Shown here: piece by piece, positions 9,719 to 64,000 of the stretch
How positions within the stretch are numbered: position 1 is the first letter of the stretch
How the letters are laid out: every line of letters starts with the position of its first letter
The notes under the pieces: model-generated
Seen by the model: only the letters and a program-made list of their open reading frames with translations
The model's database searches: none
What the model was told of the DNA's origin: nothing
Translations under genes and position numbers: made by a program
Source of the DNA: a virus
DNA length: 64,000 bases
Strand: one strand, 5' to 3'
Virus record (IMG/VR): IMGVR_UViG_3300035663_000004
Span: 23,524 to 87,523 of that record

Positions 9719-9829
9719 ATGCAGCAACAACAACGCTATCGAACTCCAATCCTGCCATGGATTCTACTGCTCACTTCCGCCTTGGCTTTGGCCTGTTTCT
9801 TTGTCGAGGCAAAATCGTTAACAATCTAA
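9719..9829 (+). CDS. Small membrane protein (36 aa)
   Basis: A 36-codon frame opens 29 nt after the promoter. It has a short QQQQRYRT start and one hydrophobic helix (ILPWILLLTSALALACFFV), then EAKS. It is a predicted single-pass membrane or signal-peptide-like peptide at the head of the chaperonin operon. The gene is judged real because it is in the right place and has a natural membrane-helix composition. Confidence 0.45.
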   Translation: MQQQQRYRTPILPWILLLTSALALACFFVEAKSLTI

Positions 9830-9842
9830 AAAACAATCGACA

Positions 9843-10217
9843 ATGTTTACAGAAAAAGACCTTGTTGCTTTTGGAAACTATGTTGTTTCCGACCAGTTCA
9901 TTTTTGACTCCGCCTTTGCGTTCGGCTTCGGCCTGTCCAACATGGACAACATCACGGACGAAGACTTGTCGCTATTCCATTCCAACCATGACCGCCTGCT
10001 GGAGGCTGAAGTTGTCGGGTCATACACCAAAACTCAAATGGTGTCTTTTGCCCGCTATATGCGCAGCGATGAACGCGCTCAGCGGATCATGGATTTGATT
10101 ACTGACCCGGAAACTTTTGAACTAAATGAGGACGAATTGATGAGCGGCTATCTGATTGCGATGCGACAGGTAAGTGATGCCGACATTGAAAACTGGAAAC
10201 TGTTGGCGTATGCTTAA
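9843..10217 (+). CDS. Hypothetical protein (124 aa) of the chaperonin operon
   Basis: A soluble acidic, mostly helical protein (FTEKDLVAFGNYVVSDQF; DEDLSLFHSNHDRLLEAEV; KTQMVSFARYMRSDERAQRIMDL). No family recognised. It overlaps the next gene by 8 bp, so translation of the operon is coupled. It could be a chaperonin-associated factor, but only position supports that. Confidence 0.55.
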   Translation: MFTEKDLVAFGNYVVSDQFIFDSAFAFGFGLSNMDNITDEDLSLFHSNHDRLLEAEVVGSYTKTQMVSFARYMRSDERAQRIMDLITDPETFELNEDELMSGYLIAMRQVSDADIENWKLLAYA

Positions 10218-10563
10218 TTGGAAGTTTTTGGCCTTTCAGGCGGTTGCGTGTTTTTTTTACCACGTTTCGCTGGAAATGTACGAATTTGACGCTCGGACGT
10301 TTGCCTGGATATTCATGTTGGTTTTCGATATGCTTTTATTTCCGCTCCCGCTGGTCGTTCTTTTGTCGTACATGGTTTTACAAGGTCAATCTATTTCGGG
10401 CTGGAGTCGTTTGGTTCACGCGCTTTATGCGGCCAACGTTTTGTCTGTACTATGGCGTTACCAATCTGAAGTATTAAACCCTTTGGTTGTATTTGCTATC
10501 ATTATTTTTTTAACAACTTATACAATTTTACTACGTTATGGGTTACTACCCTCAGTCAGATAA
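10210..10563 (+). CDS. Four-helix membrane protein (117 aa)
   Basis: The ATG at 10210 overlaps the stop of the previous gene. The product has about four hydrophobic segments (FLAFQAVACFFYHV; FAWIFMLVFDMLLFPLPLVVLL; LVHALYAANVLSVLW; PLVVFAIIIFLTTYTILL) and few charges, so it is a polytopic inner-membrane protein. Its end overlaps the GroEL-like gene by 26 bp. A membrane protein so closely coupled to a chaperonin is unusual; no family was recognised. Confidence 0.6.
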   Translation: MLNWKFLAFQAVACFFYHVSLEMYEFDARTFAWIFMLVFDMLLFPLPLVVLLSYMVLQGQSISGWSRLVHALYAANVLSVLWRYQSEVLNPLVVFAIIIFLTTYTILLRYGLLPSVR

Positions 10564-12130
10564 GACAAAGTTTTGTCAAGGCGTTGAAATGATGCTCCGT
10601 GTTGTTGGTTCAACGATGGGGCCGGGCGGGAATCCGGTTCTTGAATGCGCCGGGCTGGATGCTTCGTATCGTCGCCTCATCCGGGACGGCAAAGAAACGC
10701 TGAAACTGATTCAGCCGAACGACCCGGAAATGTATGAGCCTATTGCCCGAATGAAAGATGTCGCGGAGGCTGTCGTCCGGCGTGCTGGCGACGCCACAAG
10801 TACGGCTACGATCATTTTGGGCAGCGCTTTTCTTCATATCGAAAAGGCTATTAAGGATCACCCGGAACTGAACCGGAGCCGTATTGCCTTTCACGTTCGG
10901 CAGGCTTCAAAGATTGCTTTGGCTGAACTTGAAAAGCGCAAATTGCAGGTTACTACAAGTCAGGACTTGGAGAACGTTGCAACGATTTGCGCGGCCGGGG
11001 ATCGTGAAATCGGGTCTGTTATCGGTTCGATGATTGAAAAGATTGGTGCGGACGGGACTGTCAAGGTTGAATACCACGACAAACCGGGTGTTGAGGCGGT
11101 AATTGTTCCGGGCTACAAGTTCCAGGGCGGTGTGTACGGCATTGACCAATACAATGGTCGGCGCGGCCTCGAATTGGACAACCCTCGTGTTGTCGTTGTC
11201 GGCGACGAAACGGGTTTGGTGGATTACAAGATGGATGTTGCCCCTATTTTGGCGGAAGCGCAAAAGTTTGGCGACAACCGTCCGCTGGTGGTATTCGTGT
11301 TGTCTGCCGAAGGGTCTGCCCGCGCTACGTTGCTTCGTCCTTTTGTAAATGGTGCGGATGGCAACACGTTCCGTGCGCCTGTTTGGCTGGTTCGCATTGG
11401 TGCTGGCGGTGTAAATACCTGCGCGGACATTAGTGCTGTTACCGGGGCAACCTTGTTTGGCAAGTTGAACGGCAAAATGATTTCCAAGATCAAGGATTCG
11501 GACTTTGGCGAAGCGGCTTCGATTGTTGCTACTACGGAATCCGTAACGATTGTTTCTTCGGACGATCAAAAGGCGTCTGTAAAGGATTATGTGAAGCGGT
11601 TGGAGGCTTCGATTGCCGAACATCCGGAGCTGGAGGAAAAAACGCGCGAACGCATTGCTGCGGTAACGGGGGGTGTTGGATTGATTCGCGTTCCGGCTTC
11701 TACGCAATCTTCCGGCTTCTACTATCAGGAGGTTGTTGACGACGCTTGGCGGGCTACGCGGGCGGCTATCAACGGCGGTGTTTTGCCTGGCGGCGGGGCT
11801 GCGTTATCAGGTGTTGCTGAAAATCTATTCTCGATTCATGCAACGGCTTGGTCGGAGGAGGCATTGGTGTACGATGCCATTGGTCATGCCTTTTACGGTG
11901 TATTGAAGACGGTGTGTAACAATGCCGGATTTGAAGTTGACTGGGGTAATATTGAATTTGGTTATGGTAAGACTTACGACATTGTTTCCGGTGAAATGAA
12001 TGTAAGCTCGCTTGAGTGCGGGGTAATTGATTCTGCTCCTGCGATTATGGCTGCTGTTGAATTGGCTTTGGCTGAACTTGCTTTGTGGGTCAATTCGGAG
12101 TATTTGTTGGTTCAAAAATTTGAGCAATGA
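10538..12130 (+). CDS. groEL: Phage-encoded GroEL-like chaperonin
   Basis: This 530-residue protein aligns with group I chaperonins along its length. The TMGPGG loop (26-31) matches TLGPKG, and the ATPase aspartates are kept: Asp50 in IRDGKET, Asp85 in AGDATSTAT, where GroEL has GDGTTTAT, and Asp402 in VVDDAWRATRAA. GVLPGGGAAL (414-423) matches the nucleotide-binding VAGGGVAL. Intermediate and apical regions are divergent, and the C-terminal GGM repeat tail is missing. It should form an ATP-driven folding ring; phage GroELs are known to help fold virion proteins. The gene is followed by groES with a 4-bp ATGA overlap. Likely clients are the capsid and the very large fibres encoded downstream, by inference. 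Confidence 0.95.
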   Translation: MGYYPQSDKTKFCQGVEMMLRVVGSTMGPGGNPVLECAGLDASYRRLIRDGKETLKLIQPNDPEMYEPIARMKDVAEAVVRRAGDATSTATIILGSAFLHIEKAIKDHPELNRSRIAFHVRQASKIALAELEKRKLQVTTSQDLENVATICAAGDREIGSVIGSMIEKIGADGTVKVEYHDKPGVEAVIVPGYKFQGGVYGIDQYNGRRGLELDNPRVVVVGDETGLVDYKMDVAPILAEAQKFGDNRPLVVFVLSAEGSARATLLRPFVNGADGNTFRAPVWLVRIGAGGVNTCADISAVTGATLFGKLNGKMISKIKDSDFGEAASIVATTESVTIVSSDDQKASVKDYVKRLEASIAEHPELEEKTRERIAAVTGGVGLIRVPASTQSSGFYYQEVVDDAWRATRAAINGGVLPGGGAALSGVAENLFSIHATAWSEEALVYDAIGHAFYGVLKTVCNNAGFEVDWGNIEFGYGKTYDIVSGEMNVSSLECGVIDSAPAIMAAVELALAELALWVNSEYLLVQKFEQ

Positions 12131-12441
12131 TAATAGTAACTGAAAAGGAGTTCAAGGCCATGCAGCCCGGACTAAACCGGGTATTGGTTATTCCGGACGT
12201 TGACGATCACGTTGACGCCGCTACGGGCATTCAGATTGCGCGTGACGAAAGCGAGCGCGAACAGGGTGTTATTGTGGCTTCTTCTGATGACGCCGTAAAG
12301 GCCGGGTATAAGGTAGGCGACCATATTGTGTATGCCAAGACAAGCATGGAGGTTTTTGAGTGCGAGGTTAATTTTGGTGACAGGGTTAATACGCTTCGGC
12401 TTCGTGTTGTTGACTGGCACGATATTGCTTTAAAATATTAG
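12127..12441 (+). CDS. groES: Phage GroES-like co-chaperonin
   Basis: A 104-residue protein with the GroES order: LNRVLVIPDV at 16-25 (cf. LHDRVIVKR), a mobile-loop segment with TGIQIARDES at 33-42 (cf. GGIVL), EQGVIVAS, then YKVGDHIVYAKT (cf. VKVGDIVIFND) and a final VVDWHDIALKY (cf. ESDILAIV). The mobile-loop motif hydrophobic-Gly-Ile-x-Ile that docks on GroEL is retained. Its ATG overlaps the groEL stop, so the ring and lid are translated in a coupled way. Confidence 0.85.
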   Translation: MIIVTEKEFKAMQPGLNRVLVIPDVDDHVDAATGIQIARDESEREQGVIVASSDDAVKAGYKVGDHIVYAKTSMEVFECEVNFGDRVNTLRLRVVDWHDIALKY

Positions 12442-12445
12442 GCTT

Positions 12446-12739
12446 ATGACAAGATTGCAGCAAATTGGTGTTTTATTGATTGCCCTGCATATCGTGTTTA
12501 GTTTCACGGGTGTGTATCGGGCTGTTTCTGCTCCGAGTTACGATGTGTATGTTTACACGGGTAATCAGGGGTATTTGTTCAAGGACGTCCGGGTTGGTTT
12601 TTCCAACTTATGCGTTGTTCCGGACAGTTCCGGTGTTTTGGTTTTGTATTCCGGTGTTGCCGGGAAGGAAATATCTGTGTCGGGTGTAAAGAGTTGTGAT
12701 ATTGTTGCTGTACGAAAACCGCTTTTGTTCCCATGGTAG
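12446..12739 (+). CDS. Exported or membrane-anchored small protein (97 aa)
   Basis: The N-terminus (TRLQQIGVLLIALHIVFSFTG) is a signal peptide or anchor; the rest is a beta-rich domain (YDVYVYTGNQGYLFKDVRVGF, GVLVLYSGVAGKEISV). It starts 4 nt after groES and overlaps the following gene by 7 bp. No family recognised. Its position inside the chaperonin operon is notable because the protein should act outside the cytoplasm. Confidence 0.55.
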   Translation: MTRLQQIGVLLIALHIVFSFTGVYRAVSAPSYDVYVYTGNQGYLFKDVRVGFSNLCVVPDSSGVLVLYSGVAGKEISVSGVKSCDIVAVRKPLLFPW

Positions 12740-13434
12740 GAGATTTGTCTTTATATGTTGAAGTCGCTCCGGTTGGGGACGTTTCTTTTGACAAGGACAC
12801 GGGGGTGTTGGTCAATGATTTTGTGGATGTCCATATTCTGCGTTCCCTGCTTGTCCGTGTTGTTTCCATACCGGGGCGGCTTCCGTATTATCGCCATGAG
12901 GTAGAGGCTGTTGGTTCGATGTACAAAAAGAGCAAGTCTCGGTTTGTGTCGGAATGGTCTCAACGGATGACGCACCGTAGTTGCGAGTACGATGTTCCTG
13001 TTGAGGTGTCTGTTGGGGACTTGGTTTTAATGCAGCACTTACCGAATTTGGAGCAGCCGGAAGGTGTGCGGTATGTTAGGTACGATCAGCTGGTTGCCCG
13101 GCTTATGAAGTTATCCGGGGGGTTGTATCCTTTGAATGGCCACCTGTTGTTGCGAATGCCGGAAGACGAAAAGGGGTATATTGATCCTAAGTATAAGTGG
13201 CGAAATTCTTTGACGCGCGGTGAAGTGATTGCGCAAGGGTGTGCGGTAAGGGGGTACAAGCGTTGGCCTGGGTTTCGGGACAAAGTTTCTGAAAACTGGG
13301 TTGGCAGGACGGTTTATTTCCGGCCTTACAGCGCGGTTAGGATTGAGAATGATACGCACCGGACGATGGATTATTCTTCTCCGTGGCCATATTATCGAAT
13401 TAGCAAGCCGCAAATCTTATCATGGACGGACTAA
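12733..13434 (+). CDS. Putative tandem GroES-like protein (233 aa)
   Basis: The C-terminal half repeats the GroES strand order: YPLNGHLLLRMPEDE (132-146), TRGEVIAQG (161-169), WVGRTVYFRPYSAVRIEN (189-206), YYRISKPQIL (220-229). The N-terminal half has the same spacing in weaker form: LLVRVVSIPG (39-48), YRHEVEAVG (53-61), VEVSVGDLVLMQHL (90-103), YVRYDQLVARL (114-124). Two fused GroES folds would resemble plastid Cpn20 in architecture. With groEL and groES next door, a second lid or adaptor is a reasonable hypothesis. The relation was judged by eye and is not certain. Confidence 0.5.
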   Translation: MVGDLSLYVEVAPVGDVSFDKDTGVLVNDFVDVHILRSLLVRVVSIPGRLPYYRHEVEAVGSMYKKSKSRFVSEWSQRMTHRSCEYDVPVEVSVGDLVLMQHLPNLEQPEGVRYVRYDQLVARLMKLSGGLYPLNGHLLLRMPEDEKGYIDPKYKWRNSLTRGEVIAQGCAVRGYKRWPGFRDKVSENWVGRTVYFRPYSAVRIENDTHRTMDYSSPWPYYRISKPQILSWTD

Positions 13435-14063
13435 CGGGTGTACTGCAATTTGACACGACAAAGATGCGGATTGATCCGCAGGCAAGCGGGATGCTTTGGG
13501 AACGGTATCCGGAACTTGCTATGCGGAAAAACCTTTGCAGTATTGATACGTTTACATTTAGTCAGTTAGATGAGGAGCCTGTTTCTTTGCAGGATTTGAA
13601 TAAAACGATTATCTTTGTGGCGTATTTCTGCGATCCGGGCAGTCCGTTTTTTTCGGAGGTTGTTTTGGATCACCGCATGAAGGTTTGTTTGGATGCGGCT
13701 GGAATTACGGGTAGGTTGAGGACGCTGGTTTTGTCGCGGCATTGGTGGGTTTCGAGGGTTATGACAGAATATTTGAAATTAGTGCATAGCCATGAGTTTG
13801 AGTTGTGGTTGAGTTTGTCAATGGACTATGCGGAAAAAATGGCATATTTGCGGCTACCGCTTACATCTTTTGTTGACAATATGGAAAGCGCAATGAATGC
13901 CCGCGATAAGGTACAGAAAAGCGCTCCGGCGCTGAAGGATGAAATCAAAAAGTTAGAGACAAAGTTGTTCCCGAATGCCTATGTAGTGGATGCGGCTGTG
14001 GAAACAATAACAGCGGACGGTATAGGGGGTTGGGCGGAATACTTTGCGATGGATAAAGAATGA
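13422..14063 (+). CDS. Hypothetical protein (213 aa) at end of chaperonin operon
   Basis: A soluble protein with a YFCDPGSPFFSE segment, Trp-rich LSRHWWVSRVMTEYLKLVHSHEFELW, and a C-terminal coiled-coil-prone helix (MNARDKVQKSAPALKDEIKK). It overlaps the tandem GroES-like gene by 13 bp. No family recognised. It may be a virion or chaperonin-associated protein; position is the only evidence. Confidence 0.5.
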   Translation: MDGLTGVLQFDTTKMRIDPQASGMLWERYPELAMRKNLCSIDTFTFSQLDEEPVSLQDLNKTIIFVAYFCDPGSPFFSEVVLDHRMKVCLDAAGITGRLRTLVLSRHWWVSRVMTEYLKLVHSHEFELWLSLSMDYAEKMAYLRLPLTSFVDNMESAMNARDKVQKSAPALKDEIKKLETKLFPNAYVVDAAVETITADGIGGWAEYFAMDKE

Positions 14064-14089
14064 ATTTTTTAAAAATAAAATCAAGTAGT

Positions 14090-14533
14090 ATGAAATTCAA
14101 AGCACTTCTTTTCTTTTTTGCCTTTTTTTGTGCGGCTTTTGTCTCCGCGCAATCAAACGCATCAAAAGTCGTTCCGTGGGTTCAAAACGGCGACTCTCTT
14201 TCCGAAAACACGACTCTGGCCTATGAGCTTGCCATTGGCGGAACAATTGATAAAACAAAACTGTGGAACTACTCAGTTATTGTTTTTGCCGATTCGATTT
14301 CCGGCGCCAACGCCGGGACGGTTCAACTTCAAATTTCCAACGATCCCGCCGGAACGGCCTCGCCTATTTGGTCTAATTATGGCACGGCTGGAACTATTGA
14401 CGGAACCGCAGATCAGTTTTTTAACTACGAAGGGACGCTCTATGCTCGCCGCCTCCGTGTTTTAATTACCTCTCCTGCCGGAACCCGAAAAACTGCTATT
14501 CGCCTGCGTGGGCTTTTCCGACAAGTTGAATAA
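14090..14533 (+). CDS. Exported structural-type protein with Sec signal peptide (147 aa)
   Basis: The first 22 residues (KFKALLFFFAFFCAAFVSAQ) form a textbook signal peptide with a cleavage site after VSA. The mature part is a beta-rich, Thr/Gly/Ser-rich domain (WNYSVIVFADSISGANAGTV, QFFNYEGTLYARRLRVLIT) like fibre or surface proteins. An upstream in-frame ATG at 14060 overlaps the previous stop but would put ten residues before the signal peptide, so 14090 is preferred. It is the first of a run of signal-peptide-bearing fibre genes. Confidence 0.6.
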   Translation: MKFKALLFFFAFFCAAFVSAQSNASKVVPWVQNGDSLSENTTLAYELAIGGTIDKTKLWNYSVIVFADSISGANAGTVQLQISNDPAGTASPIWSNYGTAGTIDGTADQFFNYEGTLYARRLRVLITSPAGTRKTAIRLRGLFRQVE

Positions 14534-14557
14534 AGAAGTTCTGCTGCATACGTTACC

Positions 14558-14588
14558 GGGCGCACGAAACGGAAGTTATCGTGCGCCC
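14558..14588. other. Intercistronic GC hairpin without T tract
   Basis: GGGCGCACG (14558-14566) pairs with CGTGCGCCC (14580-14588). No T run follows on either side, so it is more likely an mRNA processing or stability element than a simple terminator. Confidence 0.55.
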
Positions 14589-14598
14589 ACCTTTAAGA

Positions 14599-15846
14599 AT
14601 GAAAAAGTTATCTTTATTCATATTATTCTTAGGCTTTTTCTTCCGGTTGTTTAGTCAAGGGACTGTTTTGACAACGGAGGGCGGGAAGCCTGTTATGTTA
14701 AACCTCGACGAAATGCGCACGGTGCGCCCTGTTACGTCGGGGTCTTTGATTTTATACGGATCGGCATTGCGCGCTATTTACGTTTCTGAAACGCCTGCGC
14801 AAATTGCAGGATCGGGGTGCGGTCAAATAGCGCTTGTAAATACGACCGACGTTGGCAGGAATACGATTGTTGGCATTGGCGTTCGCCATATTGACGCGAT
14901 TCGGAAAACATCCGACGGCAAAGCGAGTATTGCAATGAATGCGACCAATATTCCGGCTATGAAAAGCGTGGAGGATTTTGAAGCGATTGTCTTGCGGATT
15001 GCGGTGTGTTCTACCGGCCCTGGAGGCAACGGGTCTTCTGCGGGCGGAGATCGGGACAGTATTGAAGCGATGGTTTATGTTCCGACTACCGGGCGGCTTT
15101 CACTTATAAATGAATCCGGGGATAGCATTAGCGTAGTTATAAACAATCAAACGCTGTCTGTAACAGGAGATAGTTTAAGTATTAGTTTTGGCAATAAAGT
15201 AAAACTGCCGTCAAAAAGCCTTTTGGATTTGGCATCTGAATTGCCATATTATGTTAGCGATTCCGCGGCGCTGGCTGCTGGTCTTGCTCCAGGCGCGCCC
15301 TATTTGTTGGAGTGCAATAATGACTACAATTTACCTTCCGGGCTTTTCAAGGTTGTAAAAATTTGTGGGTATGACTGTTTTATTGTTTTACGTTTTTATA
15401 CAAACGATGAGGAGGCTGCGTCTTCCGGGGTTCCTGTTGGCAGGGAATATGTTTTGGATGATGACAACGCTTTGGGGGTTCTTTACGGCTTCATTAAAGT
15501 TCTTACAAATGATACGCTAAGCACGGGCGGATTGATTTGCAATGACACGCTGCCTGTTTATGCGTCTGACGCTTTGGCTATATCCGGCGGCCTGGCTGTT
15601 GGAGATCAATATGAAACTTCTGACGAAAATACCTATGGCGCTCCTGCTGGAATTGGTCGTATGGTTTCGTCTTCAAATACTTTGTCCGGCACAACTCAGG
15701 TTTGCTGTGACGAAAATGACAATTTGCCTTTTTTCAGTAACGATTCGGCTGCTATTTCCGCCGGATTGTTGGCCGGAGAAAAGTATTATCTTTTAAAATC
15801 GAATACATACGGATGGCCGTATGGAACAAAAAAGACTGTTCAATGA
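14599..15846 (+). CDS. Exported repeat protein with four SDxAAxxGGL-type repeats
   Basis: A signal peptide (KKLSLFILFLGFFFRLFSQG) opens a 415-residue protein. The C-terminal half holds four repeats of about 40 residues: LPYYVSDSAALAAGLAPGAPY, the degenerate NDEEAASSGVPVGREYVL, LPVYASDALAISGGLAVGDQY and LPFFSNDSAAISAGLLAGEKY, each ending in a Gly-rich turn and a hydrophobic strand. This unnamed motif recurs in phage structural proteins. One copy is present in the gene at 62924, which likewise precedes a fibre gene. The stop overlaps the next ATG (ATGA), so it is coupled to the giant fibre and may be its base, cap or chaperone. Confidence 0.65.
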   Translation: MKKLSLFILFLGFFFRLFSQGTVLTTEGGKPVMLNLDEMRTVRPVTSGSLILYGSALRAIYVSETPAQIAGSGCGQIALVNTTDVGRNTIVGIGVRHIDAIRKTSDGKASIAMNATNIPAMKSVEDFEAIVLRIAVCSTGPGGNGSSAGGDRDSIEAMVYVPTTGRLSLINESGDSISVVINNQTLSVTGDSLSISFGNKVKLPSKSLLDLASELPYYVSDSAALAAGLAPGAPYLLECNNDYNLPSGLFKVVKICGYDCFIVLRFYTNDEEAASSGVPVGREYVLDDDNALGVLYGFIKVLTNDTLSTGGLICNDTLPVYASDALAISGGLAVGDQYETSDENTYGAPAGIGRMVSSSNTLSGTTQVCCDENDNLPFFSNDSAAISAGLLAGEKYYLLKSNTYGWPYGTKKTVQ

Positions 15847-18800
15847 ATCAAAAGTTTTTCCTTTCCGCCTTGTTTGTTTTTTCCTGCGGCATTGCGGGCG
15901 CGCAGGGTATCGTAAAGGGTTCCGGCATCATTTACAGCGATTCGATTCCTACGCATAGTGTAGATACGCTAAAAGAAGCGGAAATTGCTTTGGATGTCCG
16001 CACCGGGAATTACTATCAATGGAGCCGCGATTCGGTCAAGTGGGTGTTCTCCGGATTTAGGGTTGAGATCAAGCCCGGCGCCTGTTCTGCCCCAACGTAC
16101 ATTCCGGGGCGCAATCAGTCTTATTTCGTTTCCGACACTTGCGGAACATTTTATTTTTACAACGACACGCTTTGGAGGCAGGTTAAGGGGACGATTGCAG
16201 ACGGAGATAAAGGAGATATAACGGTATCCGGAAACGGACTAAACTGGAATATTGACGCCGGAACGATTGGCGCTACCGAACTTGCGTCCACGTCTGTTGC
16301 TCCGGGAACGTACTCAAATGCTACGGTTACCGTTGACGCCGACGGTCGTATAACAAATGCCGTAAACGGGCCTACCGGCGCGCGCGGCATATATGATGGA
16401 TCGGGAACTACCGGAGATTCTACGGTTGTTGCAAGTATCAAAAAGGAAATTCAGTTTAGGTCTGATTCTACGGATGCTTCATTTTTGGTGGACTTTACGC
16501 CGAATGATCTGTATGGAACCAACGCGGCTGTTCGCCCGGACTCTTTGAACTTCCTGTTTTTTAATTTAACGGGTTCATCGCGTCTTGTTATTAAGTCGGA
16601 CGGCATTTCCGCTATTACAAATACGGCAAACCCGTCTTTGCGGCTTACCGGGAACCCTGCGATATACAGCGCGGACTACTCTCCGTTTACGGATCGTGAA
16701 TTGCCGGACTACGCGGCGGTAAAAAAAATCGTTGTAGATTCTGTACAGGTTATAACTGTAACAAACGACACGGCGTACTTGAGTCGGTCTGGAGGAATTA
16801 TTCCATTGAAAAAATACGCTCAGGTTATTGATACGTTTTCAAGGCTTAATGATACGCTTTTTATATCTTTGAGCAATGACAACGCCCCTGCTGTTAGTGC
16901 CATTATTGACGGTAGCTCAACAAATGAAATTCAGGACTTATCGTTATCCGGTCAAACGCTTTCTTTGAGCAATGACCCAACAACGGTGACGCTTCCGGTT
17001 ATTGGAGTATCCGGCGGAACAGGAATTACAACAAGTTCGTCGGGCGGCACGGTAACGGTGACAAACGCCGCGCCGGATCAAACCGTCTCAATTAGCGGAT
17101 CGGGTATTACAACCGTTACGGGAACTTATCCGGTCTTTACCGTCACCAGCACGGAAAACGACGGATCAACTTCAAATGAAGGTAGCCTTACAGTAGGAGC
17201 CGGAATAGCAACTACAAGCGTAATATCCTCAAATACAAGCGGAAGCACAAACGTCACCATTGAAGCCGGGTCTAATATAACGTTAAGTGAATCAGGAAAT
17301 ACAATTACGATTGCATCTACGGCTGCCGGGGTAACGGATGGAGATAAAGACGATATTACGGTTTCCGGCTCCGGCGCAAACTGGAATATTCGAAATGACT
17401 CGGTAACAAGCCCTAAAATATTGGACGGAACTATTGCGCTGGCAGACATGGGCGCTAACAGCGTGGACTCAACAAAGGTGGGCGACAAAACGCTTAGTCT
17501 TAGTGATCTCAACGGGGCATGGGGGGTACAAAATGGATTCGTGTTGAAATGGAATGGGTCTAACTGGCGACCCGGGGCGGATAATACCGGGGCGGACGGG
17601 AACGGCATTTATGGCGGCGACGGAGATATACCAACCGGCACCGACGCGACATTGCCGCTCAATAGTTTTTTTAGGTTTGAATGGCCAAGCGGAAATACAG
17701 CCTTTATAATGGATGATTTTGGCGACACGGTTTATTTGGCCGACCCTTCGCTGGCTTCTTCTGTTTTGGTTTCCGCTTCAAAGGTCGGCCTTCGCTCAAC
17801 AGGGAATATCGAACTTTGGGGTGGCACGGGCGGCGCTAAACTTCGGATGTTAGAACCGACGGGATCGGGAACTAACTATACTGAAATTCAGGTCGGCGCA
17901 CAGTCAACGGACATAACTTATACTTTGCCAACAACAACCGGATCGAATGGTCAATACCTGCAATTTACGACTGGCGGCCAGTTGCAATGGTCAACGGTGG
18001 CGGCCGGGGTAACGGATGGAGATAAAGACGATATTACGGTTTCCGGCTCCGGCGCAAACTGGAACATACGCAACGATTCAGTAACAAGCCCAAAGATATT
18101 AGACGGGACGATTGCGCTGGTGGACATGGGCGCAAATAGTGTTGACTCAACAAAAATAGGCGACAAAACTGTAAGCCTTAGCGATCTTAATGGTGCGTGG
18201 GGCGCAAATGCAGGATCGGTGCTAAAATGGGACGGGAACAACTGGAGGCCGGGAACAGACAATAATACCGACGCGCAAACGCTATCTATTAATAGTACAA
18301 CGGTAGGCAGTAGCGAGCGGTTTGCTGTTTCGATTTCCAGCGGGAATACGGTTAATTTTGACGTACCACAAGGGACGGTTACCTCGGTTGGTATCACTCA
18401 ACCCGCTGCCGGAATAACAGTAACTAATAGCCCTGTAACAACAAGCGGAAATATAAGCCTTGCGCTTGCAAATGACCTTGGCGCGGTTGAAGGGCTTACC
18501 ACGAACGGTATTGCGGTGCGGACTGGTGACAACACATGGACAACAAGAAGTATAGCGGGCGCGGCGGACCCTTCATCCACCGCATTACCTACTATAAACG
18601 ATTTTAATGGCGTCAATGGTAACCCCACAATATCAATAAGCACATCAACAAGCACCACAAAACTAACGGCGCTTGTTGCTACAACCGCTAACATTACATT
18701 AAGCGGGACGCAAACGATTGATGGTGTTGCGCTAAGTGCAGACAACAGGGTGCTGGTTAAAAACCAAAATACAGCGAGCCAAAATGGCTTATATGTAGTT

Positions 18801-21800
18801 AGGACAACAGCGTGGGTCAGAGCAACAGACCTTGATGCAAATACCGAATTAAACAATGGAGTTTTGGTTTACATTAGTCGCGGGACAGCAAATGGAGGCA
18901 AATACTTTAGGCTCGCAACGTCAACAGAACCGCCATTAACCATAACCACAAGCGCTTTAAGCTTTAGCGAAACCCTTGGCGCTGGCGTGACGGACGGCGA
19001 CAAGGATGATATAACGGTATCAAATTCAGGCGCAAACTGGAATATTAGAAACGATAGTGTTACGACTCCAAAAATCCTAAACGGAACAATCCTGTTTGAA
19101 GACATTGGCCAAAACAGCGCATCGCCCGGACAGGTTATCAAGTGGAACGGGACAGCTTGGGCGGCGGCGGCCGACAATACAGGCGGATCGGGTTCGACTG
19201 ATTTAAGCTGGACGGGCGCTTCTTCGCCTTATACGCTTAATAGTTCTTCTGGCACGGATGTGGATTTCGCGCAAGGCGGCGGCATAACGCTTTCAACAAG
19301 CGGGGCAACCTTGACTATTGCGGCTACGGATCAGTCCACGACAAACGAATTACAGACACTTTCTACGGCTACAAATACGGTAACGCTAAGCAATAGCGGC
19401 GGCAGTTTTACGATTGCAGGCGGCGGCATAAACGCTGCTTCAACATCGGGTTCTACTATTACAATAACCGGAACAGAGGTGGATGGCTCAACGACAAATG
19501 AGATACAAGACCTTTCGCTTTCAGGCCAAACGCTTTCTTTGAGCAGCGACGCTACAACGGTGACGCTTCCGGTTATCGCGGTATCGGCTGGAACTGGAAT
19601 ATCCACAAGTTCTTCCGGCGGCACGGTGACGGTGACTAATTCGGCGCCCGACCAAACAGTAGGAATAACCGGAACCGGAATAACAGTAGTTTCTAATTAC
19701 CCAAACTTTACTCTTACGGCGGCCGATCAGTCAGCCTCAAACGAAGTGCTAACAATTTCCGATGGCACAAACACCGAGGCTCTGGGCGGTCAAACATTAA
19801 CAGTTGCAGGCGGTGGTATCAATACGGCATCCTATAATGCTACAACCAATACGCTTACGATTAGCGGCACCGAGAATGACGGATCAACCTCAAACGAAGG
19901 TATTTTAGGTGTAGGCGCTGGATCGGGAACAACCGCTACAATTACAACAAACACAACAACCGGGAATGCTGTAACTATCGCGGGCGGTGGTATTGTGGCT
20001 ATTACAAAAACAACAGGTACGAACGGCGGCACTATTACTATTACCGGCACCGAGGCGGATGGCTCAACTACGAATGAATTGCAAACGCTTTCCACGGCAA
20101 CAAATACCGTTACACTCAGTAACAGCGGCGGAAGTTTTACAATCTCTGGCGCTGGCATTAATACGGCATCTACTTCCGGCTCAACTATAACTATAACAGG
20201 AACCGAGAACGACGGCTCAACTACAAATGAACTTCAGACGTTAAGTACGGCGACAAACACCGTTACGCTTTCTAATTCAGGCGGCAGCTTCACAATAGCA
20301 GGTGGTGGTATCAATACAGTATCCACAAGCGGGTCAACTATTACTGTTACTGGAACTGAAAACGACGGCTCAACCACAAACGAACTGCAAACAATCGCCA
20401 ACACATCCGACGCAACCAGTCATACGGTGACGCTGTCTAATTCGGGCGGGTCGGTGCAGTTGATTCAAGGCGCTGGTATTGATCTTACAACAGGCGGGAA
20501 CAGCGGCGCGGGAACGGTTACGATTGCGGCCACAAATAGCGGCACGGTTACATCGGTAGGCATCACCGCACCGGCCGCCGGCATAACCGTAAGCAATAGC
20601 CCTATCACGTCGAGCGGGAATATTACACTTGCGCTTGCGGATGATTTAGCGGCGGTAGAGGGATTAACGAGTATAGGTGTTGCTGTTAGAACCAATAATG
20701 TGCCGCCAACATGGACAACAAGGTCTTTAACGGTAGCTAATCCTATTTCTATACAAAACGCTACGGGCGCAAGCGATAATCCGTTTATATATTTAAACAA
20801 TGGAGATTACGGCGATATAAGCATTGCAAACTCTAATTTGCCCCTCGGGCTTCGTGGCGATGTTTGGACGATTGATGCCAACGTAGTAGATTCAACAAAC
20901 GTCGGCAACAATACGTTGAGCGTTGACGATATTAACGGCGGGTGGGGCGTTCAAACCGGGTCTGTATTGAAATGGAACGGGACAAACTGGCGTCCGGGAA
21001 CAGACGAAACAGGCGGCGGCGGCGGCGGCGTGACCGACGGCGACAAAGGCGACATAACGGTATCCGCTTCCGGCGCTACGTGGACGATTGATAACACCGT
21101 TGTGAATTACGCAAAAATCCAAAACATATCCAACACAAACCGCATTTTAGGCCGGGCAACGGCCGGGGCTGGATCAGTCGAAGAGATAACAGTTGGTGGC
21201 GATTTGACCCAAAGCGGGTCAAATTTTACGGTTGCTAACGACGCCATCACTTTTGCGAAAATGCAGAACAGCGCAGCCGCCGGGCTTTCGGTAGTTGGGC
21301 GAAGCGCAAACAGCGCCGGGGATTTCGCCGAAATAAACGCGGGCACAGACGGCTTTGTGTTGCGCAGGTCGGGTACTACTTTGGGCTTTGGGACGGTGGC
21401 GACGGCGGGGATTGCGGACGCGGCGGTGACTTACGCAAAAATCCAAAACGTAGCAGGTAACAGCGTGTTGGCTCGTACTGCCAGCGGATCGGGCACCCTT
21501 AGCGAGGTGGCGCTTTCGGCTTCTAATTTGTTAGGTCGCGGTAGTACGGGTAATGTGAGCGCGATTACGTTGGGTAGTAATTTGTCTATGTCGGGCACAG
21601 CCCTTAACACGACCGGGCATCCAACAATCACGGGAACGCCAACGACAAACGCGATACCGAAATGGACATCAAGTTCGGCGCTGGGTTCGACGATTGTCCA
21701 AGAGTCAATTTCTGGCGCGGACACGATCATTCAGATCGTTGGCCGGGACGCTTTGCGGTTGCCGCTGGGGACTACGGCGGAGCGGCCGGGAACGCCTACT

Positions 21801-22700
21801 ATTGGTATGACGCGCTATAATACTACTAATGGGGCGTTTGAGTATTATGACGCGGACGCGTGGGAAACGCCGCTGATTTCGGCTACGGGTACGGGACTTG
21901 GTACGGCGGGAAATGTGTTTTTTGCGGATGCGAATGGGCGGGCAAGCGGATCAACAAACCTTTTTTGGGACGCGACTAATAGCAGGCTGGGTGTTGGGAC
22001 AAGTTCGCCGCAAAGTCAGTTTCACTTTGTAACGAACGTTTCAGGCGACCCATCAAACTTCGTTGTAGAGCGATACACAGCAAACGCAAACATTATCCAG
22101 CGCCGCGCGAACGGAACTATTGCGTCGCCAACAGCCTGCCTTAATGGAGATGTATTGGGCGCAAACGCTTTTCGTGGCCATAACGGGACGGCGTTCGCAT
22201 CCCTTTCATCTGTAGTCATGCTTGCTGTTGCTACGGAAAACTGGACAACCTCTGCAAATGGCGCGAGGTTTACAATTAACACGATTCCTAACGGGGCAAC
22301 TTCAGGAAGTGCACGATTTACAATTAACCACAACGGCAACGTAAATATTGGTAGCGGCACAAGTCCTGAAAACAGGTTGCAAATTGAAGGCACCCTCGGT
22401 CGCAACGCGCCCGTATCAACTGACGCCACAGCATACGTCATGACAAATGACGTATCTACCACGTGGCTAATTTGTGACGAAACAGCAACAACAACGATCA
22501 CCCTTCCGGCGGCATCAAGTTGGAGCGGCCGCGAACTCACAATCAAAAATATCACCGCTTTTGCGGTGAACTCAAACGCGTCTAACGTTTTGCCTATTGG
22601 CAGCAATACGGCGGGAACGGCGATACTTTCAGCAACGGCTGGATCGTGGGCGCTGCTGGTATCAAATGGCACGAACTGGGTTATAATGCAACGCGGATAA
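15843..22700 (+). CDS. Giant exported-type repeat fibre (2285 aa)
   Basis: The ATG at 15843 overlaps the previous stop and opens a signal peptide (NQKFFLSALFVFSCGIAGAQG). Almost all the rest is repetitive beta-structure. DGDKxDITVSxSGxxWNI modules occur at about residues 122, 500, 725, 1045 and 1735. Long arrays of NELQTLSTATNTVTLSNSGG and TITITGTENDGSTTNE follow, then YTNATVTVDADGRI-type phage-fibre motifs. The last 300 residues are non-repetitive, with a GTTAERPGTPTIGMTRYNTT strand unit and LGVGTSSPQ, as in the ends of phage tail fibres. It is probably the long tail fibre or host-binding protein. The signal peptide is odd for a virion protein. Part of its modules is shared at DNA level with the fibre at 63136. 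Confidence 0.75.
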   Translation: MNQKFFLSALFVFSCGIAGAQGIVKGSGIIYSDSIPTHSVDTLKEAEIALDVRTGNYYQWSRDSVKWVFSGFRVEIKPGACSAPTYIPGRNQSYFVSDTCGTFYFYNDTLWRQVKGTIADGDKGDITVSGNGLNWNIDAGTIGATELASTSVAPGTYSNATVTVDADGRITNAVNGPTGARGIYDGSGTTGDSTVVASIKKEIQFRSDSTDASFLVDFTPNDLYGTNAAVRPDSLNFLFFNLTGSSRLVIKSDGISAITNTANPSLRLTGNPAIYSADYSPFTDRELPDYAAVKKIVVDSVQVITVTNDTAYLSRSGGIIPLKKYAQVIDTFSRLNDTLFISLSNDNAPAVSAIIDGSSTNEIQDLSLSGQTLSLSNDPTTVTLPVIGVSGGTGITTSSSGGTVTVTNAAPDQTVSISGSGITTVTGTYPVFTVTSTENDGSTSNEGSLTVGAGIATTSVISSNTSGSTNVTIEAGSNITLSESGNTITIASTAAGVTDGDKDDITVSGSGANWNIRNDSVTSPKILDGTIALADMGANSVDSTKVGDKTLSLSDLNGAWGVQNGFVLKWNGSNWRPGADNTGADGNGIYGGDGDIPTGTDATLPLNSFFRFEWPSGNTAFIMDDFGDTVYLADPSLASSVLVSASKVGLRSTGNIELWGGTGGAKLRMLEPTGSGTNYTEIQVGAQSTDITYTLPTTTGSNGQYLQFTTGGQLQWSTVAAGVTDGDKDDITVSGSGANWNIRNDSVTSPKILDGTIALVDMGANSVDSTKIGDKTVSLSDLNGAWGANAGSVLKWDGNNWRPGTDNNTDAQTLSINSTTVGSSERFAVSISSGNTVNFDVPQGTVTSVGITQPAAGITVTNSPVTTSGNISLALANDLGAVEGLTTNGIAVRTGDNTWTTRSIAGAADPSSTALPTINDFNGVNGNPTISISTSTSTTKLTALVATTANITLSGTQTIDGVALSADNRVLVKNQNTASQNGLYVVRTTAWVRATDLDANTELNNGVLVYISRGTANGGKYFRLATSTEPPLTITTSALSFSETLGAGVTDGDKDDITVSNSGANWNIRNDSVTTPKILNGTILFEDIGQNSASPGQVIKWNGTAWAAAADNTGGSGSTDLSWTGASSPYTLNSSSGTDVDFAQGGGITLSTSGATLTIAATDQSTTNELQTLSTATNTVTLSNSGGSFTIAGGGINAASTSGSTITITGTEVDGSTTNEIQDLSLSGQTLSLSSDATTVTLPVIAVSAGTGISTSSSGGTVTVTNSAPDQTVGITGTGITVVSNYPNFTLTAADQSASNEVLTISDGTNTEALGGQTLTVAGGGINTASYNATTNTLTISGTENDGSTSNEGILGVGAGSGTTATITTNTTTGNAVTIAGGGIVAITKTTGTNGGTITITGTEADGSTTNELQTLSTATNTVTLSNSGGSFTISGAGINTASTSGSTITITGTENDGSTTNELQTLSTATNTVTLSNSGGSFTIAGGGINTVSTSGSTITVTGTENDGSTTNELQTIANTSDATSHTVTLSNSGGSVQLIQGAGIDLTTGGNSGAGTVTIAATNSGTVTSVGITAPAAGITVSNSPITSSGNITLALADDLAAVEGLTSIGVAVRTNNVPPTWTTRSLTVANPISIQNATGASDNPFIYLNNGDYGDISIANSNLPLGLRGDVWTIDANVVDSTNVGNNTLSVDDINGGWGVQTGSVLKWNGTNWRPGTDETGGGGGGVTDGDKGDITVSASGATWTIDNTVVNYAKIQNISNTNRILGRATAGAGSVEEITVGGDLTQSGSNFTVANDAITFAKMQNSAAAGLSVVGRSANSAGDFAEINAGTDGFVLRRSGTTLGFGTVATAGIADAAVTYAKIQNVAGNSVLARTASGSGTLSEVALSASNLLGRGSTGNVSAITLGSNLSMSGTALNTTGHPTITGTPTTNAIPKWTSSSALGSTIVQESISGADTIIQIVGRDALRLPLGTTAERPGTPTIGMTRYNTTNGAFEYYDADAWETPLISATGTGLGTAGNVFFADANGRASGSTNLFWDATNSRLGVGTSSPQSQFHFVTNVSGDPSNFVVERYTANANIIQRRANGTIASPTACLNGDVLGANAFRGHNGTAFASLSSVVMLAVATENWTTSANGARFTINTIPNGATSGSARFTINHNGNVNIGSGTSPENRLQIEGTLGRNAPVSTDATAYVMTNDVSTTWLICDETATTTITLPAASSWSGRELTIKNITAFAVNSNASNVLPIGSNTAGTAILSATAGSWALLVSNGTNWVIMQRG
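17325..18253 (+). repeat. Tandem DGDKDDITVS module pair inside the giant fibre gene
   Basis: The stretch beginning GCCGGGGTAACGGATGGAG at 17325 recurs at 18003, offset 678 bp (226 codons). Both copies encode the same roughly 95-residue unit from VTDGDKDDITVSGSG to LKWNG/DGN.NWRPG. The first 60 bp are identical and later parts differ mostly at third positions. Confidence 0.75.
21030..21537 (+). repeat. 508-bp direct repeat shared with 63493-64000 (copy 1)
   Basis: From GTGACCGACGGCGAC to TTGTTAGGTC the sequence aligns without gaps to 63493-64000. I counted 11 differences, about 98% identity, and 10 are silent. The alignment is cut only by the window end, so the repeat may be longer. Confidence 0.9.
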
Positions 22701-32037: not shown

Positions 32038-32076
32038 AACGTTCATTGTACATTTTTGACGTTCGTTATATTTTTT

Positions 32077-32178
32077 GAAAAAAAGTTACAAAAAAACTTG
32101 CGCGTATTTGCATAACGCAGTATCTTTGTATCATCAAACAAACAAAATATTTTTTACTCACTAATTTTTTGAGACATG
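32077..32178 (+). repeat. Promoter-leader module, copy 1 (similar to 41432-41534)
   Basis: From GAAAAAAAGTT through TATCTTTGTA and the A-rich leader to TTTTTTGAGACATG the region matches 41432-41534 in order and spacing. Long identical blocks include AACTTGCGC, ATTTGCATAACG, TATCTTTGTA and ATTTTTTACTC. Confidence 0.8.
32097..32128 (+). promoter_or_regulatory. Promoter (CTTG-N20-TATCTTTG)
   Basis: CTTG at 32097-32100, a 20-bp spacer and TATCTTTG at 32121-32128. It lies between two terminators, so it makes a separate transcript for the 32176 gene and the RNA after it. Confidence 0.75.
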
Positions 32179-39977: not shown

Positions 39978-41433
39978 ACCGTACCAACAAACGGCCGTTG
40001 AGCGAATTCGGCAGGCGTATTTACAGGGCGCGCGTTCGCCGCTGCTGGTACTACCCACCGGTGGGGGGAAGACGGTCGTATTTTCGCACATCGCCGCCAC
40101 GTCCAGCGCGCGCGGCAAGCGCATACTGATCCTGGTACATCGCATCGAACTACTCAGGCAGACCGCGAAGGCGCTGCAACGCGCCGGAATCCAGCCGGGG
40201 CTAATTAATCCAGCTTACACTCCGAACTATCGCGCACCGGTGCAGGTAGCGATGGTGCAGACCATGGCGAAGCGAACGCATTATTTTCGGAAAATGCCGT
40301 TCGACCTTATTATTACCGACGAGTGTCACCACGTTGTAAGCAAGACGTACCGGGATATTCTGGCAGAATTTCCGAACGCATATCAATTAGGCGTGACGGC
40401 TACGCCTGTTCGCGGCGACGGGATGGGGCTTGGCGTGACGGCTGGCGGCGTGTACGATACGCTGATTATGGGGCCAACCGTCTCCGAACTCATTGCAGGC
40501 GGCTACCTGGTTAAGCCCGCAATCTATGTGCCGAAAGACAGGGTTGACCTTTCCGGGGTTCGTTCGCGAATGGGGGACTTCGATAAGCACGAACTCGAAA
40601 CGCGCATGGACAAGCCACAGATCACGGGCAACGCCGTCGAACATTACCGCCGCACGTTGAACGGACTGCCTGCCGTTGCCTTTTGCGTTTCGGTGAAACA
40701 CGCGCAGCACGTCGCTGCGGAGTTCCAGGCCGCCGGATATAAGTCGTACGCCGTTGACGGTTCGATGGAAGACGCACAGCGCGCCGCGATATTGAACGGA
40801 CTGGCGACCGGCAGCGTCCAGGTTGTGACGTCATGCGATATTATTAGCGAGGGTACGGATATTCCGGCTATCGCTGGCGCAATCCTGCTCCGCCCTACCC
40901 AGTCAACCGGGCTGTACCTGCAACAGGTCGGGCGGGCGCTGCGCACAATGGAAGGGAAGGAGCGCGCCGTAATATTAGATCACGTCGGCAACGTGCTGAC
41001 CCACGGGCTTCCTGACGAAGATCGGGCATGGAGCCTGGACGGCGAGGAACGGAAAAAGAAAAAGAAAAAGGACGGCGAAGAACCGAACGTGCGCGTGACC
41101 ATGTGCAAGGGCTGTTACGCTGTATTCGAGCCGCATGTGCCTGCGTGTCCTTATTGCGGGCTGGAGGTGCAGGGGAAAGGCCGGCAGGTGAAGCAGGCCG
41201 ACGGCGAACTGCGGGAACTTACCGCCGAAGATCGGCTGCAACTTCGCCGCAATCAGAGCCGGGAGGTAGGGCGCGCGCGAACGCTGGCAGACTTGGAGCG
41301 CATCGAAAAGGAACGCGGATATAAGCGCGGGTGGGCGCGTTATGTTTTTGAATCTCGGCAGAAAAGGGCTGATTTTGCCGACGCGGTTTTCGGGCAGGAC
41401 TGGAACTGGCCGACACTTGGAAAAAAAAGTTGA
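39964..41433 (+). CDS. SF2 DNA helicase with C-terminal zinc ribbon
   Basis: A 489-residue superfamily 2 helicase: Q-motif-like LRPYQQTAVERI, Walker A PTGGGKT (31-37), DEAH-type box DECH (119-122) and GVTATPVRGDG. Helicase C domain motifs are CDIISEGTDIPAI and QQVGRALRTMEGK (about 319-331). A four-cysteine zinc ribbon follows at about 381-400 (CKGCYAVF, CPYC). It resembles the UvrB/RecG-like restart helicases carried by phages and should unwind or remodel DNA in replication. The ATG at 39964 overlaps the regulator gene. Confidence 0.9.
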   Translation: MVTLRPYQQTAVERIRQAYLQGARSPLLVLPTGGGKTVVFSHIAATSSARGKRILILVHRIELLRQTAKALQRAGIQPGLINPAYTPNYRAPVQVAMVQTMAKRTHYFRKMPFDLIITDECHHVVSKTYRDILAEFPNAYQLGVTATPVRGDGMGLGVTAGGVYDTLIMGPTVSELIAGGYLVKPAIYVPKDRVDLSGVRSRMGDFDKHELETRMDKPQITGNAVEHYRRTLNGLPAVAFCVSVKHAQHVAAEFQAAGYKSYAVDGSMEDAQRAAILNGLATGSVQVVTSCDIISEGTDIPAIAGAILLRPTQSTGLYLQQVGRALRTMEGKERAVILDHVGNVLTHGLPDEDRAWSLDGEERKKKKKKDGEEPNVRVTMCKGCYAVFEPHVPACPYCGLEVQGKGRQVKQADGELRELTAEDRLQLRRNQSREVGRARTLADLERIEKERGYKRGWARYVFESRQKRADFADAVFGQDWNWPTLGKKS

Positions 41434-41534
41434 AAAAAAGTTTGCAAAAAACTTGCGCAGATTTGCATAACGTCCGTATCTTTGTACGGTAATTGAAACA
41501 ACACATTTTTTACTCTTTAAATTTTTGAGTTATG
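41432..41534 (+). repeat. Promoter-leader module, copy 2 (similar to 32077-32178)
   Basis: The order GAAAAAAAGTT, AACTTGCGC, ATTTGCATAACG, TATCTTTGTA, ATTTTTTACTC, ATTTTTGAG then ATG is the same as at 32077-32178, 9.3 kb away. Confidence 0.8.
41452..41484 (+). promoter_or_regulatory. Promoter (CTTG-N21-TATCTTTG)
   Basis: CTTG at 41452-41455 and TATCTTTG at 41477-41484, 47 nt before the ATG at 41532. Second member of the paired promoter modules. Confidence 0.75.
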
Positions 41535-63139: not shown

Positions 63140-64000
63140 TAAACAAATATTTATTTTCTTTATTTATTTTCATTTTTCCGGCTGCCGCATTTTCGCAGAT
63201 CGTGAAGACGGCCGCTATACCTTACACAACCGGGACGCCAACGCACACGCCGTCGGCGTCCGGTTCTGCCTGGGCGATTGATAATTCAACCCTTGACTTG
63301 TGGGTGTATTATGGCAGCGCGTGGAACCTTGCCGGGGAGCGCATACAAACCATATCCGGGTGCGCCGCACCTGCCTACACGCCGGGCACGGGGCAATCGC
63401 TGTTTGTTGTGAACGGCTGTGATTCGCTGTATTATTACCGTTCGGGCGCGTGGGTGCGGATTAACGCTGGCGGCGGTGGCGGTGGCGGCGGCGTGACCGA
63501 CGGCGACAAGGGCGACATAACGGTATCCGCTTCCGGCGCTACGTGGACGATCGATAACACCGTTGTGAATTACGCAAAAATCCAAAACGTATCCAACACA
63601 AACCGCATTTTAGGCCGGGCAACGGCCGGGGCTGGATCGGTAGAAGAGATAACAGTAGGTGGCGATTTGACCCAAAGCGGGTCAAATTTTACGGTTGCTA
63701 ACGACGCCATAACTTTCGCGAAAATGCAGAACAGTGCAGCCGCCGGGCTTTCGGTAGTTGGGCGAAGCGCAAACAGCGCCGGGGATTTCGCCGAAATAAA
63801 CGCGGGTACAGACGGCTTTGTGTTGCGCAGGTCGGGTACTACTTTGGGCTTTGGGACGGTGGCGACGGCGGGTATTGCGGACGCGGCGGTGACTTACGCA
63901 AAAATCCAAAACGTAGCAGGTAACAGCGTGTTGGCTCGTACTGCCAGCGGATCGGGCACCCTTAGCGAGGTGGCGCTTTCGGCTTCTAATTTGTTAGGTC
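63136..64000 (+). CDS. Second exported-type fibre, truncated by window end
   Basis: The ATG at 63136 opens a signal peptide (INKYLFSLFIFIFPAAAFSQ) and a frame that stays open to 64000, so the gene is incomplete here. The first 115 mature residues (LWVYYGSAWNLAGERIQTIS; GCAAPAYTPGTGQSLFVVNG then CDSLYYYRSGAWVRI) are a diverged relative of the start of the 15843 fibre. A glycine linker and the shared DGDKGDITVSASGATWTIDN module follow. From 63493 on, the DNA is about 98% identical to the 15843 gene. It is probably an alternative or second tail fibre. Confidence 0.75.
   Translation, partial: MINKYLFSLFIFIFPAAAFSQIVKTAAIPYTTGTPTHTPSASGSAWAIDNSTLDLWVYYGSAWNLAGERIQTISGCAAPAYTPGTGQSLFVVNGCDSLYYYRSGAWVRINAGGGGGGGGVTDGDKGDITVSASGATWTIDNTVVNYAKIQNVSNTNRILGRATAGAGSVEEITVGGDLTQSGSNFTVANDAITFAKMQNSAAAGLSVVGRSANSAGDFAEINAGTDGFVLRRSGTTLGFGTVATAGIADAAVTYAKIQNVAGNSVLARTASGSGTLSEVALSASNLLG
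63493..64000 (+). repeat. 508-bp direct repeat shared with 21030-21537 (copy 2)
   Basis: Ungapped match with constant offset 42463 to copy 1; ends only because the window ends. Confidence 0.9.

Follow-up and report, generated by a model that had tools for sequence, protein, structure and literature searches.

A divergent GroEL-type chaperonin, a GroES-like co-chaperonin and a probable tandem GroES protein encoded together in a phage operon

Can a phage carry a chaperonin ring of its own together with both a single and a double lid to close it? The question is raised by a gene cluster in a 64,000-nucleotide stretch of viral DNA (bases 23524-87523 of the 87523-base virus record IMGVR_UViG_3300035663_000004; hereafter the window), which encodes a 530-aa GroEL-type protein, a 104-aa GroES-like protein and a 233-aa protein that the original prediction tentatively read as two fused GroES domains (Table 1). 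We find that the GroEL is secure, that the 104-aa protein is GroES-like and that the 233-aa product is probably a tandem Cpn10 protein; the interpretation first offered is thus partly supported overall. For the set as a whole we lean, with some reserve, towards a phage-specific group I-type chaperonin with single and double lids that close its ring over late phage proteins. In the parts of the literature consulted, phage chaperonins are described either as lid-free (EL, OBP, AR9) or as lid-only (T4 gp31).

Judged from its sequence, the identity of the 530-aa product as a GroEL is certain. It matches PF00118 with an E value of 2.7e-21 (76.3 bits, exceeding the curated cut-off of 34.3), phrog_5725 at 9.5e-56 and chaperonins of the PDB at 2.8e-38 for the best, and in pairwise alignment shares only 26% identity with its E. 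coli counterpart. The residues of the ATP site (D52, D87, D398 and GGG414-416, with positions verified on the E. coli sequence) are all retained, as is D495, which bears out the earlier claim of kept ATPase aspartates; two further positions at the site are changed (G88 to A, T90 to S), and the protein has no GGM tail. The 104-aa protein scores 19.7 bits against PF00166 (E 0.00091), and because this falls under the curated cut-off of 21.1 we term it GroES-like. It also matches phrog_3188 at 0.0011. A Cpn10 hidden Markov model (HMM) of fetched proteins (98 in all, 18 phage and 80 bacterial) gives it 29.5 bits, a score reached by none of 1000 shuffled sequences, and hhalign against the full Cpn10 set gives 95.9%, with a score reached by none of 150 shuffles and none of 150 fragments of phage open reading frames (ORFs); tblastn among phages returned nothing useful. 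The predicted GroES therefore holds up as a GroES-like protein, and the linkage and conservation of the two genes are evident from the DNA.

The 233-aa gene is real, because a 97% identical copy stands at the same place in locus L001 and its ratio of non-synonymous to synonymous substitution rates (dN/dS) is 0.057 overall, with 0.069 for residues 1-125 and 0.045 for residues 126-233. We consider it likely that the product is a tandem Cpn10 protein, and compared its halves separately with the Cpn10 profile (residues 1-130 as the N half, 125-233 as the C half). The N half scores 4.6 bits, as high in 1 of 1000 shuffles and 8 of 2050 phage-ORF fragments, and the C half scores 4.4 bits, which 2 of the shuffles and 10 of the fragments attain. 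These control fragments, like those of the hhalign tests, are 110-aa pieces of ORFs of at least 150 aa in the six frames of fetched phage loci, some of which are not genes; for the profile counts 82 of 2132 were first removed as matching tandem or Cpn10 models, and one GroES-like fragment was retained. With hhalign the halves score 23.0 and, across 71 columns, 22.4, values reached by 0/150 shuffles and 0/150 fragments in either case. On a profile of phage Cpn10 alone the C half is significant (0/1000 shuffles), whereas the N half is not (141/1000 shuffles and 143/2050 fragments as high; by hhalign, 18/150 and 8/150). The half-by-half search thus supports both domains on the full profile but not, for the N half, on the phage-only one. 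A scan of the C half only against NCBIfam gave GroES as the sole match (E 0.15), only a hint.

Proteins of comparable build occur in phages of Bacteroidota, among them phages of Flavobacteriia. A search for Cpn10 in 14 records (12 phages found via GroEL, plus G000 and G001, the latter a contig related to the window) yielded, next to single-domain proteins, a longer Cpn10 match in the Cellulophaga phages phi38:1 and Calle_2; gp089 of phi38:1 has 194 aa, is annotated as co-chaperonin GroES and adjoins the terminase. The gp089 family, PHROG 13932 ('co-chaperonin GroES', 200 positions), is found in 77 phage-collection records (68 Flavobacterium, 7 Cellulophaga, 1 Maribacter and 1 other), and relatives are encoded by at least 574 viral-contig stretches (574 of 600 among the pattern matches listed). 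In uncalibrated hhalign comparisons with phage Cpn10 and with the complete Cpn10 set, its N half gives 84% and 67%, and its C half 95% and 97%, respectively, which supports the view that these proteins of about 200 aa (phi38:1 gp089, phi46:3 gp092, those of Elemovirus and Maribacter phage Panino) have two Cpn10-like halves, as proposed here for the 233-aa protein. In a few exact-word literature searches, limited to titles and the starts of abstracts, we met no account of a phage tandem GroES, and we do not claim its absence from print.

Structure models point the same way for the 233-aa protein. An AF2 model guided by 34 tandem-family rows, picked on suspected kinship (36 were ready; L108 and L117 were omitted), reached a predicted local distance difference test score (pLDDT) of 58.2 and a predicted template-modelling score (pTM) of 0.60, with 79/233 residues at pLDDT 70-90 and 90 residues below 50. 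Foldseek against the PDB returned one match with E below 0.001, the 205-aa chain Q of 7ekq (6.8e-4; TM score 0.46, normalised on model length), followed by GroES chains from 7.4e-3. VIA-align, for which a Z below 8 may reflect merely a common arrangement, aligned 7ekq_R (Cpn20) with Z 9.9 over 162 residues at 4.6 A, spanning residues 1-233, and in a viral model library a 200-aa phage cpn10 ranked second (2.2e-5). A profile that includes the 233-aa protein (A5) matches GroES and 7ekq chains, with a best E of 0.0037, from its second half. Matches of another profile (A3) to designed repeat proteins in the PDB were taken as chance. The 7ekq proteins, chloroplast Cpn20/Cpn21 with Cpn10, combine two head-to-tail Cpn10 domains with a single-domain partner and are the best structural match to the model; they are of plant or algal origin and 14-17% identical in structural alignments, and the likeness is one of structure. 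Because its alignment rows were chosen for suspected kinship, the guided model supports a double-GroES fold without proving it, and we regard that fold as probable. Of the predicted tandem GroES, then, the two halves and the double co-chaperonin match make a probable case, weakened by a model guided by its presumed family.

Several results weigh against this assignment. An unguided AF2 model from two near-identical rows was uninformative (pLDDT 35), single GroES chains align to the guided model at Z 4 to 6 and only from about residue 127 on, and the N half of the model alone finds oxidoreductases at Z about 3. Searches with the full protein and its halves gave nothing significant in Pfam, PHROGs, NCBIfam (of the halves, the C half) or the sequences of the PDB, and tblastn among phages found nothing useful. 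Models of PHROG 13932 (the PHROGs scan, an 82-sequence model and the five-row model A3) do not match it, and its global profile score to the tandem family is reached by 27/300 shuffles and 15/149 unrelated ORFs. Local pairwise scores to the family fail as well (best, 164/400 shuffles as high; mean, 27/400 shuffles and 12/114 control ORFs), as does hhalign of its C half with the family C half (27/150 shuffles and 28/150 fragments as high). The crossed comparisons are likewise not significant, with scores as high in 19/150 shuffles and 20/150 fragments for the N half with the family C half, and 71/150 and 44/150 for the C half with the family N half. As most of these kinship tests are not significant, we do not file the protein in PHROG 13932.

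The missing family match, the failed unguided model and the largely non-significant kinship tests would all suit an unrelated beta-rich phage protein whose GroES likeness arose by chance and was reinforced by the guided model. We consider this improbable, since both halves outscore nearly all shuffled and unrelated sequences on the full Cpn10 profile, GroES is the only NCBIfam match of the C half, and the mean global pairwise score to the tandem family (105.2) was reached by 0/400 shuffles and 0/114 control ORFs, the top control scoring 105.1. The best global pairwise score was reached by 13/400 shuffles, and hhalign of the N half with the family N half by 1/150 shuffles and 0/150 fragments. 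Alignment to the tandem proteins places an insert of about 36-40 residues in the N half of the 233-aa protein, near residues 55-92. A motif scan with the N half returned 13 stretches: one known relative, two tandem GroES proteins that hardly differ from one another (L265 and L271) and carry the motif in the corresponding position, and ten others that were rejected, lying inside short frames or one long unrelated ORF. Pairwise scores of the 233-aa protein with L265 and L271 are not significant.

How far does the combination extend? Of 18 records searched for GroEL and Cpn10, two were the window's own record and G001; the 16 others, W05 included, all have the tandem gene, 12 with GroEL, 13 with single-domain Cpn10 and 12 with all three. 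A seventeenth tandem record, the complete genome of phi46:3 (tandem gene gp092, L273, KC821622.1:41804-42394), has no GroEL by PF00118; single Cpn10 was not sought there. GroEL, single GroES and tandem GroES thus occur together in 12/17 tandem records, a sample that includes some closely related phages (two Elemovirus, two Callevirus) and several fragmentary records. The original prediction knew of no such combination; it is already present in other Bacteroidota phages and is not unique. What is unusual here is the gathering of all three parts into a single operon whose GroEL is so divergent: in the 12 three-part records, going by reported positions, at least about 5 kb separate the tandem gene from groEL, so that the survey finds the parts often together but spread along the genomes, with the tandem gene by the terminase. 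Tenacibaculum phage Gundel_1, a match of the G001 terminase described below, was searched for GroEL and tandem GroES and lacks both.

This neighbourhood brings in the chief rival, in which the 233-aa protein has a GroES fold but serves as a cofactor of head or packaging assembly, for example of the large terminase, and is no lid for this ring. A large terminase follows the tandem gene on the same strand at 79/79 viral-contig loci, namely those with at least 600 bases downstream out of 82 fetched (L051-L133), which were all chosen for their likeness to a single protein and are not independent of one another; the estimated terminase start lies -203 to 915 bases from the end of the tandem gene, and in MW202828 and phi46:3 one small gene separates the two. 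Together with the distance to groEL and the phi46:3 genome, where the tandem gene stands near the terminase and GroEL is absent, this adjacency speaks for an assembly role. In the window, however, the 233-aa gene lies about 0.3 kb past groES, within the chaperonin operon, and the terminase of G001 is several genes further on; moreover, neighbourhood by itself does not prove a terminase-cofactor function. The 233-aa protein differs from PHROG 13932 in this setting, in its N-half insert and in escaping the family models. We judge this alternative unlikely for the window. The terminase adjacency in the wider family also suggests concrete candidate client proteins.

The simplest account of the gene set, in our analysis, would be a system built from a divergent GroEL-type ring protein, a GroES-like lid of one domain and a lid of two fused GroES-like domains; the single lid, the double lid or a mixture of the two would close the ring while it folds late proteins. 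Its most likely clients would be fibre, terminase, portal or capsid proteins. Binding of both lids to this ring, their possible mixing within one lid and the choice of clients are inferred. In E. coli GroEL the hydrophobic apical residues for lid and substrate binding are Y199, Y203, F204, L234, L237, L259, V263 and V264; the phage residues aligned to these are V, D, Q, A, L, R, L and V, with 2/8 identical and three polar, in a region where the alignment is uncertain at 26% identity. Because this lid-binding face seems to have drifted, the ring would be expected to need its own lids and not those of the host, and the changed face would fit co-evolution with them.

Three points tell against a phage ring closed by these lids. 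First, with D, Q and R in place of Y203, F204 and L259, canonical lid binding by the phage GroEL seems doubtful. Second, the available text of one report describes jumbo-phage chaperonins as lid-independent (PMC9598537). Third, because phi46:3 has tandem GroES without GroEL, a tandem GroES need not serve a phage ring; this genome lowered our confidence in the phage ring and in the mixed lid, and raised it in the possibility that the lids act on host machines, either re-tuning host GroEL in the style of T4 gp31 or capping a protease in the style of chloroplast ClpP. T4 gp31 indeed replaces GroES (PMC6318259; PMC9598537, available text), a CPN11/CPN20/CPN23 set is seen on the Chlamydomonas Clp core (PMC8889267, available text), and 7ekq, the top structural match, is titled as a ClpP structure. 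A phage with its own groEL in the operon, though, has less need to re-tune that of its host, and no Clp gene was named in the scans made, none of which was aimed at Clp genes. Action on host machines strikes us as distinctly improbable.

Chloroplasts offer a precedent for mixing lids: Cpn10 and double Cpn20-type proteins form seven-domain hetero-oligomers, and Arabidopsis Cpn10(1) is functional only together with Cpn20 (PMC5780408; PMC4242682, available text). One single and three double lids would likewise make seven domains, in an asymmetric lid that might suit large virion or packaging proteins. That Bacteroidota phages independently reached such a chloroplast-like mixed lid on a phage ring, its parts gathered here in one operon, is a tentative idea that we hold to be rather doubtful. 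The operon and the wider phage set would offer a compact, expressible system for asking how single and double lids share a ring and why phages need it.

Other known systems resemble parts of this operon. Bacterial groESL also has groEL adjoining a GroES-like gene; the window operon differs in its groEL-groES order, its strong divergence, the missing GGM tail and the extra tandem and membrane proteins. T4 is not known to bring a GroEL of its own. The phage-encoded GroES-like lids T4 gp31 (which matches the C half of the 233-aa model at Z 5.1) and RB49 CocO are single-domain GroES orthologs that replace host GroES, and whereas lambda capsid proteins are folded with host GroEL-GroES, T4 supplies its own lid (PMC9598537, available text). 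Phages EL (gp146), OBP (gp246) and AR9 (gp228) encode a divergent GroEL, as here, but in the available text these are described without a co-chaperonin (PMC9598537), whereas this operon encodes one or two; for phage EL the literature leaves room for a distant homolog of GroES. Separately, the crAss-like uncultured phage cr108_1 encodes a 159-aa protein near GroEL (L041:1408-1887) with a weak Cpn10 match (E 0.004), a piece of which scores 12 and 16 bits with two Cpn10 profiles; it is an unannotated GroES-like protein.

To which phage does the operon belong? The window joins two. Window positions 10601-16928 are 91.5% identical to G001, with patchy matches in the fibre gene to about 21091, and 9/57 tested window ORFs match G001, namely those from groEL through the fibre ORF plus an ORF at 23348 (a 48% match located within the 2060-aa fibre of G001). 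From 21493 on, the window is identical to a 45-kb contig, G004, and G+C content is 47.6% in 1-21000 and 55.4% past the junction. On these matches and the difference in G+C, the chaperonin operon belongs to the first phage (phage A), a distant relative of the tandem-GroES Bacteroidota phages. After its fibre gene, G001 continues with a gene for 144 aa, then a terminase (phrog_6681, 1.4e-49) and proteins that match virion components, a region matched by 0/57 window ORFs. A search with this terminase gives 100 phage records (of which 68 are Flavobacterium, 15 Cellulophaga, 2 Tenacibaculum and 1 Maribacter, with 14 others, which include uncultured phages and some weak crAss-like matches), PHROG 13932 phages among them. 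Upstream of the window, phage A has a 2999-aa ORF (L144:10986-19985, G000) whose product contains a large-polyvalent-protein domain (PF18838, 2.3e-14) and matches a virion protein (phrog_22602, 6.6e-36) and, weakly, a metallopeptidase.

On the G001 and G004 matches, the junction and G+C, we rejected the 87.5-kb record as a single phage. The join is most simply a mis-assembly; a natural recombinant phage with these exact parts is a possible alternative. The second phage (phage B) carries genes for a sheath, tape measure, terminase, portal and Mu-like head-protease protein. Its genome seems to be circular and about 42.5 kb long: the last 45 bases of the window (63956-64000) repeat 21493-21537 exactly, as at the closure of a circular genome, the repeat zone also covers 63475-64000, and G004 carries the same stretch again at its other end, 97.8% identical. 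The downstream genes for a contractile tail and a head belong to phage B, so that the virion setting first proposed was partly wrong; a fibre gene does follow the operon in G001. The giant fibre of the window fares similarly. Its 2295-aa ORF (15813-22700) crosses the junction between the phages, so that a protein of this full length probably does not exist.

Table 1. Features of the window, with coordinates in window positions
Feature	Position	Strand	Basis
124-aa protein, function unassigned, opens the packed cluster	9843-10217	+	ORF
129-aa membrane protein, GTG start, overlapping both neighbours	10174-10563	+	ORF, hydropathy (two hydrophobic stretches)
Divergent GroEL-type chaperonin, 530 aa	10538-12130	+	PF00118, phrog_5725, PDB chaperonins
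GroES-like single-domain co-chaperonin, 104 aa, overlapping the groEL stop	12127-12441	+	PF00166, phrog_3188, Cpn10 HMM
97-aa protein, N-terminal hydrophobic stretch at residues 9-27 (anchor or signal)	12446-12739	+	ORF, hydropathy
233-aa probable tandem Cpn10 protein	12733-13434	+	Half-by-half Cpn10 tests, guided model, dN/dS
N-terminal Cpn10-like half, residues 1-130	12733-13122	+	Cpn10 HMM, hhalign
C-terminal Cpn10-like half, about residues 131-233	13123-13431	+	Cpn10 HMM, hhalign
213-aa protein, no named family, strongly conserved along with the operon	13422-14063	+	G001 identity, dN/dS
Two proteins, 157 and 421 aa, N-terminal hydrophobic stretches, kept beside the operon in G001	14060-15846	+	ORFs, hydropathy
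Fibre gene, phage A part	15813-21011	+	Patchy matches to G001 up to 21091
Phage A/phage B junction zone inside the fibre gene	21012-21493		Resembles window end from about 21012; G004 identity from 21493
Phage B, contractile tail, Mu-like head, apart from the chaperonin phage	21493-64000	+	100% identical to G004

By the ORF list, the cluster is a closely packed gene run from 9843 to 14063 and onward, all on the + strand, so that the predicted operon is real although its giant-fibre setting does not stand as described. From groEL onward it is kept in G001 and under purifying selection; G001 starts inside groEL, and the 124-aa and 129-aa genes lie outside its coverage. In Pfam the 124-aa product matches nothing up to E 1, and its best PHROG stands at 0.17. 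The 129-aa and 97-aa products both have hydrophobic stretches, in agreement with the two membrane or exported proteins originally proposed, and the 97-aa gene has a dN/dS of 0.31. The 213-aa protein is 100% identical in G001, with the lowest dN/dS among the genes compared (0.017), and has no match in Pfam or NCBIfam, its best PHROG (0.023) being a family of unknown function. Read by eye, the cluster genes have no Shine-Dalgarno-like sequence upstream, which would fit a Bacteroidota host. Exact-peptide scans of viral contigs found G001 as the single relative, and in the corresponding genome scan 0/27 stretches were relatives. Within phage B, two stretches of about 100 bases (32075-32173 and 41430-41529), seen via G004, are 81% alike.

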